The position numbers and the translations under genes were made by a program. The notes under the pieces were generated by a model. The model searched no databases, was not told where the DNA came from, and saw only the letters and a program-made list of their open reading frames with translations. This document shows positions 17,354-20,384 of a stretch of DNA of 60,736 nt, in pieces. The stretch is taken from positions 1-60,736 of IMG/VR virus record IMGVR_UViG_3300047494_000097, one strand, 5' to 3'. This DNA comes from a virus. Within the stretch, counting starts at the first letter, position 1. Each line of letters begins with the position of its first letter.

Positions 17354-17635
17354 ATGGAAATCGAGTTCGACCCGGCGAAATCCGAAAGTAATCTCCGCAA
17401 GCATGGGATTTCTCTGGCCGACGCCGAACTGATGAACATCAACGAAGCCACCGTCGAACCGGATACCCGGTTCGACTACGGCGAACAGCGCTTTCGCGCC
17501 TGGGGCTTGATCGCCGGGGTTTTGCACATTCTCGCCTTCACGATCCGCGGATCCAAAATCCGCGCAATCTCGCTTCGCAAATCAAATGCAATGGAAAACC
17601 GCCGCTATGAAAAAAATCAAGAAAAATCAGAATGA
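17354..17635 (+). CDS. brnT: BrnT-type toxin (type II toxin-antitoxin)
   Basis: This 93-residue ribonuclease-fold toxin has the family opening IEFDPAKSESNLRKHGISLA (residues 3-22). It continues with DAELMN, a central DTRFDYGEQRFRAWGLI strand pair, and the IRAISLRKSNAMENRRYE end with the catalytic-region Arg/Lys residues. BrnT cleaves RNA and is blocked by BrnA, encoded just downstream with overlap. It is divergent from the packaging genes and was probably acquired as a cargo cassette. Confidence 0.88.
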   Translation: MEIEFDPAKSESNLRKHGISLADAELMNINEATVEPDTRFDYGEQRFRAWGLIAGVLHILAFTIRGSKIRAISLRKSNAMENRRYEKNQEKSE

Positions 17636-17930
17636 TTACGAAGAAAAGCCAATCGACGATGATGAAAACCCTGAGTTGACCGAAGAAGATTTCGCGCGTG
17701 GGCGGCCGTTCAAAGAAGTGTTTCCTGAGCAATACGCAGCCTGGGAAGCAAACGGCCGTCAGCCCATCAAAGCGAAGCCGATCGGCAGGCCGCCTGTCGA
17801 AAAGCCAAAAGTGCACATTGGTTTTCGGCTTTCCCAGGACGTAGTCGAGCGCATTCGATTGTCAGGGGCTGGATACAACGCGCGGGTCGAGAAAGTATTG
17901 CGCGATGCGCTGGATGCCGGACAGTTCTAA
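17607..17930 (+). CDS. brnA: BrnA-type antitoxin
   Basis: This is an antitoxin of about 107 residues (ATG at 17607; the frame is open from 17586). An acidic N-terminal half (PELTEEDFARGRPFKEV) wraps the toxin. A C-terminal ribbon-helix-helix-type segment (KVHIGFRLSQDVVERIRLSG) would bind the operator upstream of brnT. The gene overlaps the 3' end of brnT, as is usual for this pair. Confidence 0.85.
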   Translation: MKKIKKNQNDYEEKPIDDDENPELTEEDFARGRPFKEVFPEQYAAWEANGRQPIKAKPIGRPPVEKPKVHIGFRLSQDVVERIRLSGAGYNARVEKVLRDALDAGQF

Positions 17931-17937
17931 CGATCTG

Positions 17938-18330
17938 TCAGGCCGCCGGCGGCGCCAGGTTCTCCATCGGGACATTCAGAACGGCGGCCAATTTGCGAAG
18001 CGCTGCGACGCTTCCGGGCTTTTTGCCCTTTTCGATCTCGTTCAAATAGGCTGGGCTGATTTCCGCCGCTGCCGCCAGCGCTGTTTGGCTGAGGCCAGCG
18101 CGCTTGCGCCAAATGGTGACCGGTGAGACGCCGTCGAGGATCTGCAGGGCCTCCTCGCCGGTGTAGGATTGCCGGATCACCTCATCCAGCCCAATCGCCT
18201 CAATTTGCGCATCAAGCCGCGCCACGGACGCCGGATAGGCGGCATCTCGAAGAAATGCCTCCCAGTCAGCGCGGAGGAAGGTGATGGTCGTTGCGTCCTC
18301 GGCAACCGGTTTCGGAAACGGTGTGTTCAT
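17938..18330 (-). CDS. Xre-family antitoxin of a HigBA/RelE-type module
   Basis: From the ATG at 18330 the protein has 130 residues. An N-terminal region with WEAFLRDAAYPASVARLDAQ precedes a C-terminal Cro/CI helix-turn-helix (LSQTALAAAAEISPAYLNEI, then EKGKKPGSVAALRKLAAVL). The start overlaps the toxin stop by ATGA. It should neutralise the toxin and repress the operon, perhaps at the inverted repeat at 18587-18601. Confidence 0.85.
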   Translation of the reverse strand: MNTPFPKPVAEDATTITFLRADWEAFLRDAAYPASVARLDAQIEAIGLDEVIRQSYTGEEALQILDGVSPVTIWRKRAGLSQTALAAAAEISPAYLNEIEKGKKPGSVAALRKLAAVLNVPMENLAPPAA

Positions 18331-18578
18331 CGGTAAATATCCTTTCGCGGCCCAACCTCTGTGACGATCATTGCCCCGGCGGTGAGGCGATAAATCGCCC
18401 GGTAATTCCCTTTGCGCATGCGCCACACTCCCGGGGTTCCGACCATCTGAGTGACGAAGCTCAAACGCTGCGGATGGGCATCGGCAACTTGCTTAAGAGC
18501 CGCGACGATACGTTTGCCATCGGCCTTCGGCAGCTTGGCGATTTGCGAGAGAGCGGCGGGGAGGATGACTAACTTCAT
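18327..18578 (-). CDS. RelE/ParE-superfamily toxin (HigB-like)
   Basis: The 83-residue toxin has the compact RelE pattern: LPAALSQIAKLPKADGKRI, a central VTQMVGTPGVWRMRKGNYRA segment with the conserved WR.R.G.YR motif, and a terminal EVGPRKDIY. It likely cleaves mRNA or interferes with gyrase. Toxin-first order is typical of HigBA. It lies tail to tail with brnA. Confidence 0.85.
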   Translation of the reverse strand: MKLVILPAALSQIAKLPKADGKRIVAALKQVADAHPQRLSFVTQMVGTPGVWRMRKGNYRAIYRLTAGAMIVTEVGPRKDIYR

Positions 18579-18624: not shown

Positions 18625-18902
18625 CTAATAGAGAATATTTATCGGGTGTCGAATCTGGACATGCAGGGCTTTCACCTGCCGCCGCATTGCCCCCGGCTGG
18701 TCGCGGCTTCCGGCATAGGGATACGTCTGCCCGAAATGCACCGACAACGCGGCCAGGGCCGGGACGAGACGCCGGGCTTCCACCAGCTGCGAGCGTTCCG
18801 CTCTCTGCTCGGAATTTCACCGGTGCCCCCGGCAGGCAGCATCAGCTGCGCGTAGCGACGCCGGTTCGTATCGTTCTCGCCAGCATATAGGGTGTCGCTC
18901 AT
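18625..18902 (-). pseudogene. Small unknown gene, apparently frameshifted
   Basis: From the ATG at 18902 the frame reads MSDTLYAGENDTNRRRYAQL then MLPAGGTGEIP, and degenerates into Arg/Trp/Pro-rich text until a stop at 18672. In the -1 frame from about 18803 a natural-looking continuation appears (QLVEARRLVPALAALSVHFG, then QTYPYAGSRDQPGAMRRQV) ending at 18625. A single-base indel therefore seems to split one protein of about 92 residues. No slippery heptamer is visible. It overlaps the upstream gene by ATGA. Confidence 0.55.
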
Positions 18903-19084
18903 CGCGAACAACCCGCAACCCGCGCGTCGGCCTCTTGGCGCGTGTCGGCAACCTCGATCACGCCGAAGTCGTCCTCGATTGCGACAAAGGTGTCGCCGAA
19001 GCGCGAAACGTGCTCGACCAGGCGCAGGGTGCCGCTCTTGGCGGCGATGGCGATGGCGACGTCGGTGGCGGAAAGAAGACGCAT
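18899..19084 (-). CDS. Small unknown protein (61 aa)
   Basis: Start ATG at 19084 with a GGGGGATC ribosome-binding site. It encodes LLSATDVAIAIAAKSGTLRL followed by a strand-rich part (RFGDTFVAIEDDFGVIEVAD) and ends AGCSR. It forms a two-gene unit with the frameshifted gene at 18902 (ATGA overlap). No family recognised. Confidence 0.55.
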   Translation of the reverse strand: MRLLSATDVAIAIAAKSGTLRLVEHVSRFGDTFVAIEDDFGVIEVADTRQEADARVAGCSR

Positions 19085-19280
19085 GGGAGATCCCCCAAAG
19101 GCCGCGGCGGGATTGCCGGGCTGCTGCTCTGCTTTCCGCCCCAGCCCTTGAGGACTGGCAGCGCCGGCGGTGCCCCGCGCCGGTGGGAGGAAGCGGTCCA
19201 GGCCGCGTCCATGTCGAGTGTTTTGCCAGAAATGCCCGCGCACGACAAGAAGAAAATACGCTGAAACAGCATATTTTCGG

Positions 19281-19309
19281 TTTACAATTACGTCGTATTA
19301 GCGCATAAA
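19281..19309 (+). promoter_or_regulatory. Promoter TTTACA-N17-CATAAA ahead of the hydrophobic peptide gene
   Basis: The -35 hexamer TTTACA (19281-19286) and -10 hexamer CATAAA (19304-19309) are separated by exactly 17 bases in a local AT-rich patch of otherwise GC-rich DNA. Predicted transcription starts at about 19316, the first base of a perfect 9-bp GC-rich hairpin. Confidence 0.5.
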
Positions 19310-19315
19310 ACTGAG

Positions 19316-19455
19316 GCCGGGCGGATTGGCCGCCCGGCACCCAGAGGAGCTAGAGATGGTTATCTCAGTGACTCTGCTGTGGAGAAGATGGAGCCTTACA
19401 GTTTCCATCATCTTCTAAACCGCGGCTTCCGGGGTGGGGCACAAACCCACCCCGG
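19316..19455 (+). ncRNA. Highly structured short transcript region with stacked hairpins
   Basis: Four inverted repeats follow each other. GCCGGGCGG-ATTGG-CCGCCCGGC spans 19316-19338. GAGAT-GGTT-ATCTC spans 19353-19366 and covers the peptide start. An imperfect arm pair AGAAGATGGA/TCCATCATCTTCT lies within the peptide gene. CCGGGGTGGG-N7-CCCACCCCGG spans 19429-19455. A 5'-terminal hairpin, a sequestered start and a 3' hairpin on a transcript of about 140 nt is the layout of type I toxin mRNAs. No U-tract follows the last hairpin. Confidence 0.45.
19356..19418 (+). CDS. 20-residue hydrophobic peptide, candidate type I toxin
   Basis: The peptide MVISVTLLWRRWSLTVSIIF is preceded by an ideal ribosome-binding site (AGAGGAG, six bases before ATG) and a good promoter. 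Hydrophobic residues flank a central WRRW, resembling membrane-acting peptides of type I toxin-antitoxin loci. It sits in the toxin-antitoxin island. No antisense RNA promoter could be assigned confidently. A leader peptide controlling the downstream Xre gene is the main alternative. Confidence 0.45.
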   Translation: MVISVTLLWRRWSLTVSIIF

Positions 19456-19494
19456 TTGCAGGGTTCACATAGCTGAAACCGGGGCTTACCGCAA

Positions 19495-19746
19495 ATGACT
19501 TCGGACGAGCTGACAGCATTTCGCAAAGGTCTCGGCCTGACCCAGACCGAAATGGCCGGACGGGTCGGCCTCAGTCTGCGGGCCTATCAGGAGATCGAGG
19601 GCGGCGCCTCTAAGGTTCGGCCGCTCCATGTGGCGGCAGCCGAGCGGGCCGCCCTGACGCTGGCCGTCGAGCGCGGCGAGCCGATGTTGGCGCCGGTGAG
19701 CGTGCGGCGCGAGGCCCTCGAGCTGGCCAGGCTGATTGCCGGCTGA
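19495..19746 (+). CDS. Xre/Cro-type DNA-binding protein
   Basis: This 83-residue helix-turn-helix protein has the pattern DELTAFRKGLGLTQTEMAGR then VGLSLRAYQEIEGGASKVRP, typical of small Xre regulators of alphaproteobacterial prophages. It ends in a helical ERAALTLAVERG segment. It may regulate the MazE/MazF-like genes that follow or the peptide locus upstream. Confidence 0.75.
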   Translation: MTSDELTAFRKGLGLTQTEMAGRVGLSLRAYQEIEGGASKVRPLHVAAAERAALTLAVERGEPMLAPVSVRREALELARLIAG

Positions 19747-19800: not shown

Positions 19801-20031
19801 ATGCAACCCCGTCCCACCTCTCGCGATCGCATCGCCCGGCATCGCGCCTCCCAGAAAGAGCGCGGATTGCGCGCGGTCGTGCTGTGGCTGCCGGACCTCA
19901 ACGATCCCCATTACCGCGCTCGGCTCGCCGAGGAATGCCGCCGCCTCTCTCGAATGACCGCCGAGGAGGCCGCCATTGTTGACGACTTCGCCCAAATTGC
20001 CGGGCCGGGGCCAGATGACGGGTGGCGATAG
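19801..20031 (+). CDS. MazE-like antitoxin (DUF3018 type)
   Basis: The 76-residue antitoxin has the DUF3018 pattern: RDRIARHRASQKERGLRAVV, LWLPDLNDP, then RLAEECRRLS and a terminal DDGW motif. It ends inside the start of the MazF-like gene (10-base overlap), the usual order and coupling for this module. Confidence 0.82.
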   Translation: MQPRPTSRDRIARHRASQKERGLRAVVLWLPDLNDPHYRARLAEECRRLSRMTAEEAAIVDDFAQIAGPGPDDGWR

Positions 20032-20384
20032 AGGCTGACGCCATCCGGCGGGGCTGTGTGATCCTGGTCAGGATACGAGGCGACAAAGCCCGGCCTGCCG
20101 TGGTGGCTCGGTCCGACCTTCTCGCCACCTTGCCTTATGCGACGGTGCTACCGATCAGCAGCGACCTCCGCACCAATGCCAGCCTGCGCGTCGACATAGC
20201 CGCCACGCCGGAGAACGGGTTGCGCGTCGCGTCGCAAGTCATGACGGACTGGCCGCAGACAGTTCGGCTTGATGAAGTGGGCCAGGTGATCGGCCAGGTC
20301 GACGCGGAGACTATGCGCCTGGTCACGCGACAGATGGCCGTGGTGCTGGGGATCGGCGCCGGCAGGGGTAGACCTCGCCGATGA
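20022..20384 (+). CDS. MazF/PemK-type endoribonuclease toxin
   Basis: This 120-residue protein, GTG start, has the MazF signatures IRRGCVILVRIRGDKARPAV, a PYATVLPISSDLR segment with the catalytic-region Ser/Thr, and ASQVMTDWPQTVRLDEVGQV. MazF toxins cut mRNA at short motifs. It is the third type II toxin in a 3-kb stretch. Confidence 0.88.
   Translation: MAIEADAIRRGCVILVRIRGDKARPAVVARSDLLATLPYATVLPISSDLRTNASLRVDIAATPENGLRVASQVMTDWPQTVRLDEVGQVIGQVDAETMRLVTRQMAVVLGIGAGRGRPRR

Follow-up and report, generated by a model that had tools for sequence, protein, structure and literature searches.

A short segment of a 60,736-base virus record (IMGVR_UViG_3300047494_000097), hereafter the window, whose positions serve as coordinates throughout, carries one copy of a tiny phage gene family that is previously undescribed. 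At its centre lies a micro-open reading frame (micro-ORF) of 20 codons set among four stem-loops (SL1 to SL4), together with a sense promoter, a predicted antisense RNA gene and a gene for a helix-turn-helix (HTH) protein. The same layout is present in about 50 other contigs and genomes, mostly of Rhizobiales phages and prophages. From these comparisons we consider it somewhat probable that the element is a toxin-antitoxin cassette of type I-like design to which an HTH autorepressor has been added. The window copy has the following parts.

19252–19278, no strand: palindrome GAAAATACGCTGaaaCAGCATATTTTC, 92% complementary, upstream of the sense −35 element; probable HTH operator.
19281–19309, plus strand: sense promoter, TTTACA (19281–19286), a 17-nt spacer and CATAAA (19304–19309), read directly.
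19316–19338, plus strand: SL1, a perfect 9-bp GC stem (19316–19324/19330–19338) where the sense mRNA is predicted to begin.
Minus strand: the SL1 inverted repeat plus CTCAGTTTTAT, an intrinsic terminator-like site for the predicted antisense RNA.
19343–19349, plus strand: ribosome site AGAGGAG, 6 nt 5′ of the ATG at 19356.
19343–19375, plus strand: SL2, a predicted hairpin enclosing the ribosome site and the AUG (19356–19358).
19356–19418, plus strand: micro-ORF of 20 codons, MVISVTLLWRRWSLTVSIIF, read directly; it aligns with relatives, which pass the coding test.
19381–19415, plus strand: SL3, a predicted hairpin within the micro-ORF; relatives pair UGGAGA with UCUCCA in the same codons.
19429–19455, plus strand: SL4, a perfect 10-bp stem (19429–19438/19446–19455) with a 7-nt loop, directly after the stop codon.
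19467–19494, minus strand: antisense promoter, TTGCGG (19494–19489), a 16-nt spacer and CTATGT (19472–19467), in register with the family.
19306–19461, minus strand: predicted antisense RNA of about 155 nt, deduced from promoter and terminator; it is complementary to SL4 and the micro-ORF as well as to the ribosome site and SL1.
19495–19746, plus strand: Xre-type HTH protein of 83 amino acids, a probable autorepressor (Pfam HTH_3, HTH_31).

A preliminary description of this DNA had listed the 17-spaced promoter, the 9-bp GC hairpin, the start-sequestering hairpin, the ribosome site, the 20-codon ORF and the 10-bp hairpin, and each lies where it had been placed. SL3, the minus-strand promoter and terminator, the palindrome at 19252–19278 and the HTH gene as part of the unit are additions to that account. 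The homologue search that it had proposed for the peptide with its hairpins brought to light the roughly 50 further loci.

These relatives were found via peptide patterns, the downstream HTH protein, an RNA model or the 5′ leader alone. The HTH protein search led to a locus whose HTH protein is 61–63% identical to that of the window (L002) and to two others (L003 and L004), all with a 22-codon ORF and then a GC hairpin immediately upstream of the HTH gene. Peptide patterns were derived from the ORFs of the HTH-found relatives, and further loci came from a named phage and from the RNA-model and 5′-leader searches. In Rhizobium phage RHph_TM3_3_3 (L024) the micro-ORF is present and unannotated (MN988468.1:1139–1204, minus strand); its neighbours there are a tRNA-Met on one side and the HTH gene on the other, and a NusG-like antiterminator gene is close by. 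The peptide of the relatives reads MS(I/V/F)KLT(V/F/L)QVR(F/I)G(K/R)WR(V/L)(T/A)(I/L)SI(G/S)R. The window peptide aligns with it without gaps from a start that comes two codons later and, at 25% identity, diverges more than any other. Its membership follows from a covariance model (R1) that was built from 18 relatives with the window left out, since this model matches window positions 19315–19467 end to end with E = 3e-6; the next match in the window has E = 4.8.

Beyond this circle the family thins out rapidly. In the wider Alphaproteobacteria the covariance model retrieved only the already known Rhizobium genome, and a peptide profile gave one further match (L056 in G619, E = 6.6e-6), at which the covariance model had no match. 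A DNA search of deposited phages and plasmids with the window sequence returned nothing useful, tblastn with the peptide of one relative gave no match in plasmids, the exact window pattern was not found in viral contigs, and no element was found at ten more distant HTH relatives (L005–L014). The window element and seven relatives had no match at or near the gathering score in Rfam 15. Likewise, the peptide matched no Pfam or NCBIfam profile, in keeping with the earlier remark that it resembles no family known to the author of that description. The PHROGs family phrog_7536 was considered as a longer homologue (E = 0.033 for one relative) and dropped, as it had two marginal matches in 41 genomes and another in an unrelated cyanobacterium. 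In the literature searched we found no description of a type I module in rhizobia or their phages.

Judged by its substitution pattern, the micro-ORF frame is under protein-level constraint in the relatives, the window copy being one divergent member. Among 17 distinct ORFs of relatives, the numbers of variable columns at the three codon positions are 10, 3 and 11, i.e. the second position is almost invariant. The mean BLOSUM score is 0.63 in frame +0 and −0.39 to −1.36 in the other five frames; a shuffled-column null gave −0.91 ± 0.36 with a maximum of 0.23, so that none of 300 controls reaches frame +0. A protein encoded on the antisense strand was rejected, because the minus frames score negative. 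Since some loci had been chosen by a pattern inside the ORF, we repeated the search with the 5′ leader only (SL1 plus ribosome site). This search recovered 28 loci. Apart from one that is truncated where its contig ends, each of them (27 of 27) has an intact ORF, exactly 22 codons long, with an HTH gene behind it. According to the preliminary description, relatives in which the hairpins persist and the frame is broken would have pointed to a leader or regulatory RNA; no such locus occurs among these 27. The one clearly frame-broken copy (L015) is a decayed one, in which the start region is broken and the HTH gene lost while the antisense promoter sequence is kept. At another locus (L026) the peptide is kept, and the HTH gene as well as a recognisable sense promoter are lost.

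The RNA itself is also constrained. In the window, the 5′ leader and the post-stop hairpin are more stable than shuffled sequences (z = −3.5 and −4.1, respectively), and the post-stop hairpin has z-scores of −4 to −7 in every distinct member. RNAalifold applied to the relatives returned four stem-loops, in which seven base pairs have changed on both sides. The counterpart of SL2, a UGAGC/GCUCA hairpin, is present in 18 of 18 relatives, one of which has a G-U in place of an A-U pair. Moreover, most ORFs of the relatives are more stable than their synonymous recodings (mean z = −1.8), and Arg15 is encoded by the rare codon AGA in 17 of 17 ORFs, which fits a requirement for pairing with the TCTCC of codons 18–19. 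By predicted folds and z-scores, the mRNA is thus structured with a sequestered ribosome site, as in type I modules.

Between SL4 and the start of the HTH gene, every representative has a minus-strand promoter of the type TTG(A/C)NN-N16-(C/T)TATAT, with TTGAAG-N16-CTATAT as its conserved form. In each of the 23 representatives with dissimilar spacers, this site with its 16-nt spacing is the best minus-strand promoter match, and the summed promoter score of 211 compares with 161.6 ± 3.2 (maximum 170) for dinucleotide shuffles. The hexamers were fixed after a first look, though they follow a published consensus, and a plus-strand control was not enriched. The sigma-70 consensus of S. meliloti is CTTGAC-N17-CTATAT (PMC2873474), to which the antisense promoter of the family is close. 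The predicted antisense start coincides with the foot of SL4. An intrinsic terminator on the minus strand is significant in 19 of 22 representatives, compared with 1 of 22 for the plus strand. Its distance downstream is usually about 235 nt, and the window version consists of SL1 itself plus a U tract. Promoter and terminator together define a predicted antisense RNA of 150–245 nt over the leader and the ORF across the family. At one locus (L050) the sense −35 element (TTGACT) is embedded in a 13-bp hairpin that has U tracts on either strand, about 60–105 bases upstream of the micro-ORF, a geometry by which the sense promoter and the antisense terminator share one inverted repeat.

HTH homologues follow the micro-ORF in nearly all phage relatives. 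With the exception of L002, these proteins are only 24–42% identical to that of the window, while the peptides stay nearly constant. The sense promoter has a counterpart at the same place in the relatives (TTGCNN-N17-(C/G)ATAAC), and in about two thirds of the loci twin palindromes 24–33 bp apart surround its −35 element. The two palindromes are identical or nearly so within a locus and differ between loci. A structure model of the HTH protein (predicted local distance difference test, pLDDT, 95) resembles restriction-system controller proteins, Aca2 (33–35% identity), Aca10 (33%) and HipB among the top PDB folds; this likeness to known regulators is consistent with autorepression. The HTH protein is probably an autorepressor acting on the sense-promoter palindromes, DNA binding being deduced from these features. 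Binding of the RNA hairpins instead, as in Aca2, is disfavoured, since the operators vary between loci, whereas the hairpins do not and do not resemble the operators.

The covariance model also found four syntenic chromosomal copies (L051–L054) in one Rhizobiales family of 15 genomes, located between an HD-domain gene and convergent NifU-like and folE genes (named by eye from their translations). They comprise ORFs of 20–21 codons such as MKMTITLRLGKWRVTISISR and have no HTH gene, which argues that the peptide matters apart from that gene. Possible antisense promoters are seen in two of the four, and the stop codon has been lost from one copy (L052).

The peptides have the look of cationic amphipathic beta-hairpins. 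In the relatives, the alternation of hydrophobic residues changes register at the central G-K/R, the pattern of a beta-hairpin with a two-residue turn; the beta moment (0.84–1.07) exceeds the alpha moment (0.23–0.37), the net charge is +4 to +6, and the grand average of hydropathy (GRAVY) is about −0.1 to 0.5. Type I toxins are mostly transmembrane alpha-helices (PMC8309996), and this usual, though not universal, helix is absent from the relatives. The preliminary description had proposed a membrane peptide, which the barely hydrophobic, beta-patterned relatives do not bear out in general. Only the window copy, with a GRAVY of 1.38 and weak alternation (p = 0.41), is strongly hydrophobic, and it is the most hydrophobic of all.

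If the cassette is of a type I-like kind, the window segment would represent one copy of a mobile unit carried mainly by Rhizobiales phages. A repressible promoter would give a short, highly structured mRNA with hairpins at the 5′ end, at the start site, within the ORF and after the stop, and this mRNA would run on into the Xre-type HTH gene. The HTH protein would bind the sense-promoter palindromes and shut the promoter off, while antisense transcription from the opposite-strand promoter after SL4 would run across the whole ORF and the leader as far as the intrinsic terminator. The peptide may be harmful or growth-modulating; the antisense RNA would block its translation and the HTH protein would limit its transcription. 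Release could follow the loss of HTH protein and antisense RNA, or take place in a newly infected cell where neither has yet accumulated.

Known type I modules (hok/sok, tisB/istR, aapA/isoA, zorO/orzO) share with the cassette a short peptide, a structured mRNA, a hidden start site and a 5′-end hairpin, as well as an overlapping antisense RNA gene, here a predicted one, and carriage by phages and mobile DNA. They differ in that the cassette peptide is cationic and beta-patterned in most members rather than a transmembrane helix, that the predicted transcript includes the gene for a probable HTH autoregulator, and that there is no sequence relation to a known family. In the preliminary description an antisense RNA had figured only among the suggested checks. 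The type I-like layout proposed there is strengthened by the conserved coding micro-ORF, the structured, start-sequestered mRNA and the conserved antisense promoter and terminator, all of which, like the anatomy of the locus, are evident from the sequences compared. Its placement of the element among type II modules holds as well, and this setting speaks for a toxin-antitoxin function: besides terminase genes, the neighbourhood has BrnT/BrnA, a ParE-like toxin with an HTH protein, and MazE-like/PemK. These three modules lie within 3 kb (17354–18578 and 19801–20384).

Several observations weigh against a type I-like assignment. The relatives are cationic with beta-type amphipathicity, unlike the usual type I helices, and an HTH partner is foreign to known type I modules. 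In the window, folding of the ORF is no stronger than that of its synonymous recodings (z = +0.4), one clear palindrome only is seen, and the antisense promoter is weak (8 of 12 positions; p = 0.23 taken alone), yet in the family register. In addition, the peptide-pattern searches favour conserved C-terminal residues. Since the usual transmembrane helix is lacking and we infer toxicity and both transcripts, as well as antisense pairing and HTH autorepression, the cassette is not classed here among the type I modules.

Leader-peptide control of the HTH gene in the manner of tap/CopA-repA of plasmid R1 is an unlikely, though not a far-fetched, alternative. Translation of the micro-ORF, opposed by the antisense RNA, would then set the repressor level, and the peptide would have no target. 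As in copB/copA/tap-repA, a leader peptide would be combined with a predicted antisense RNA over the leader and a protein repressor that acts on the same transcript. The micro-ORF with its hairpins directly precedes a regulatory gene on one predicted transcript, and SL4 stands between the ORF stop and the HTH start. However, the downstream gene encodes an HTH protein rather than a replication initiator, the HTH genes appear to have their own ribosome site past SL4, and the amino acids are conserved, not merely the open frame. Furthermore, the peptide is kept in copies without an HTH gene (L026 and the chromosomal L051, L053 and L054), and the existence of such copies indirectly disfavours this kind of control.

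Rather less probable is a counter-defence operon similar to acr-aca, in which the peptide would inhibit a host protein, either a defence protein or a host enzyme, perhaps by adding a beta-hairpin, and the HTH protein would shut the operon after early infection. Operons with Aca2 or Aca10 likewise have a small gene, then a small HTH gene (80–100 amino acids) of similar fold, and palindromic operators at the promoter, and the relatives indeed combine a downstream HTH gene with twin inverted-repeat operators at the promoter. The variation of HTH proteins and operators beside a nearly constant peptide is what a shared host target would lead one to expect. The likeness to Aca2 and Aca10 is generic, however (E about 0.02), and other Xre regulators score equally. 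An antisense RNA gene and a sequestered start site would be unexpected in such an operon, chromosomal copies exist, and an inhibitor of 20–22 amino acids would be unusually small; an anti-CRISPR role is hypothetical.

It is improbable, too, that the RNA rather than the peptide is active. In that case the structured sense RNA or its antisense counterpart would be a regulatory RNA acting in trans, the ORF being of secondary importance. The four conserved stem-loops, the strong RNA conservation with compensatory changes and a rare AGA codon fixed by pairing would suit this possibility, and conserved multi-hairpin RNAs in phages are known among the Rfam/Weinberg-type motifs. Unlike those motifs, the cassette is under coding constraint: substitutions are conservative in the sense frame only, the second codon position hardly varies, and no frame-broken copy occurs among the 27 unbiased loci. 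Ordinary intergenic sequence with chance hairpins, of which GC-rich DNA yields many, can practically be dismissed, as it is refuted by relatives with the same architecture at about 50 other loci and by the independent covariance-model match.

Some observations concern the surroundings of the cassette. A 114-amino acid ORF at 18902–19243 (minus strand), just upstream of it in the window, has no Pfam match and may not be a gene. At four loci (L036, L038, L040 and L043) the cassette lies, by eye, between a CsbD-like gene (not checked for L036) and a large primase-like gene and not by a terminase, and it thus occurs in different mobile contexts. In one prophage (L023), a match to the small RNA family ar35 (RF02346; 47.1 bits) is located at 2360–2499 on the minus strand, about 0.5 kb upstream of the cassette.

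Returning to the type I-like cassette with its HTH autorepressor, we tentatively propose that it is new in kind. It would be a three-part phage cassette composed of a predicted cationic beta-hairpin peptide of 20–22 amino acids, a four-hairpin mRNA, and dual control by an antisense RNA encoded in cis and by an HTH autorepressor that is co-transcribed with the peptide and diverges fast; related copies stand alone in Rhizobiales chromosomes. The peptide, which stays constant, might act on a conserved host target, and repressor and operators might diversify so that prophages sharing a cell avoid cross-regulation. Members of the family are short enough to be made synthetically. They occur in about 50 elements, and in at least one deposited phage genome (RHph_TM3_3_3) the gene is unannotated. 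A peptide this short with a conserved sequence, mRNA fold, antisense promoter and terminator offers a clean system in which to test how RNA controls the action of a peptide. Should the peptides prove to be beta-hairpins, the known range of RNA-regulated toxins would become wider, and a conserved target in the Rhizobiales would be indicated.
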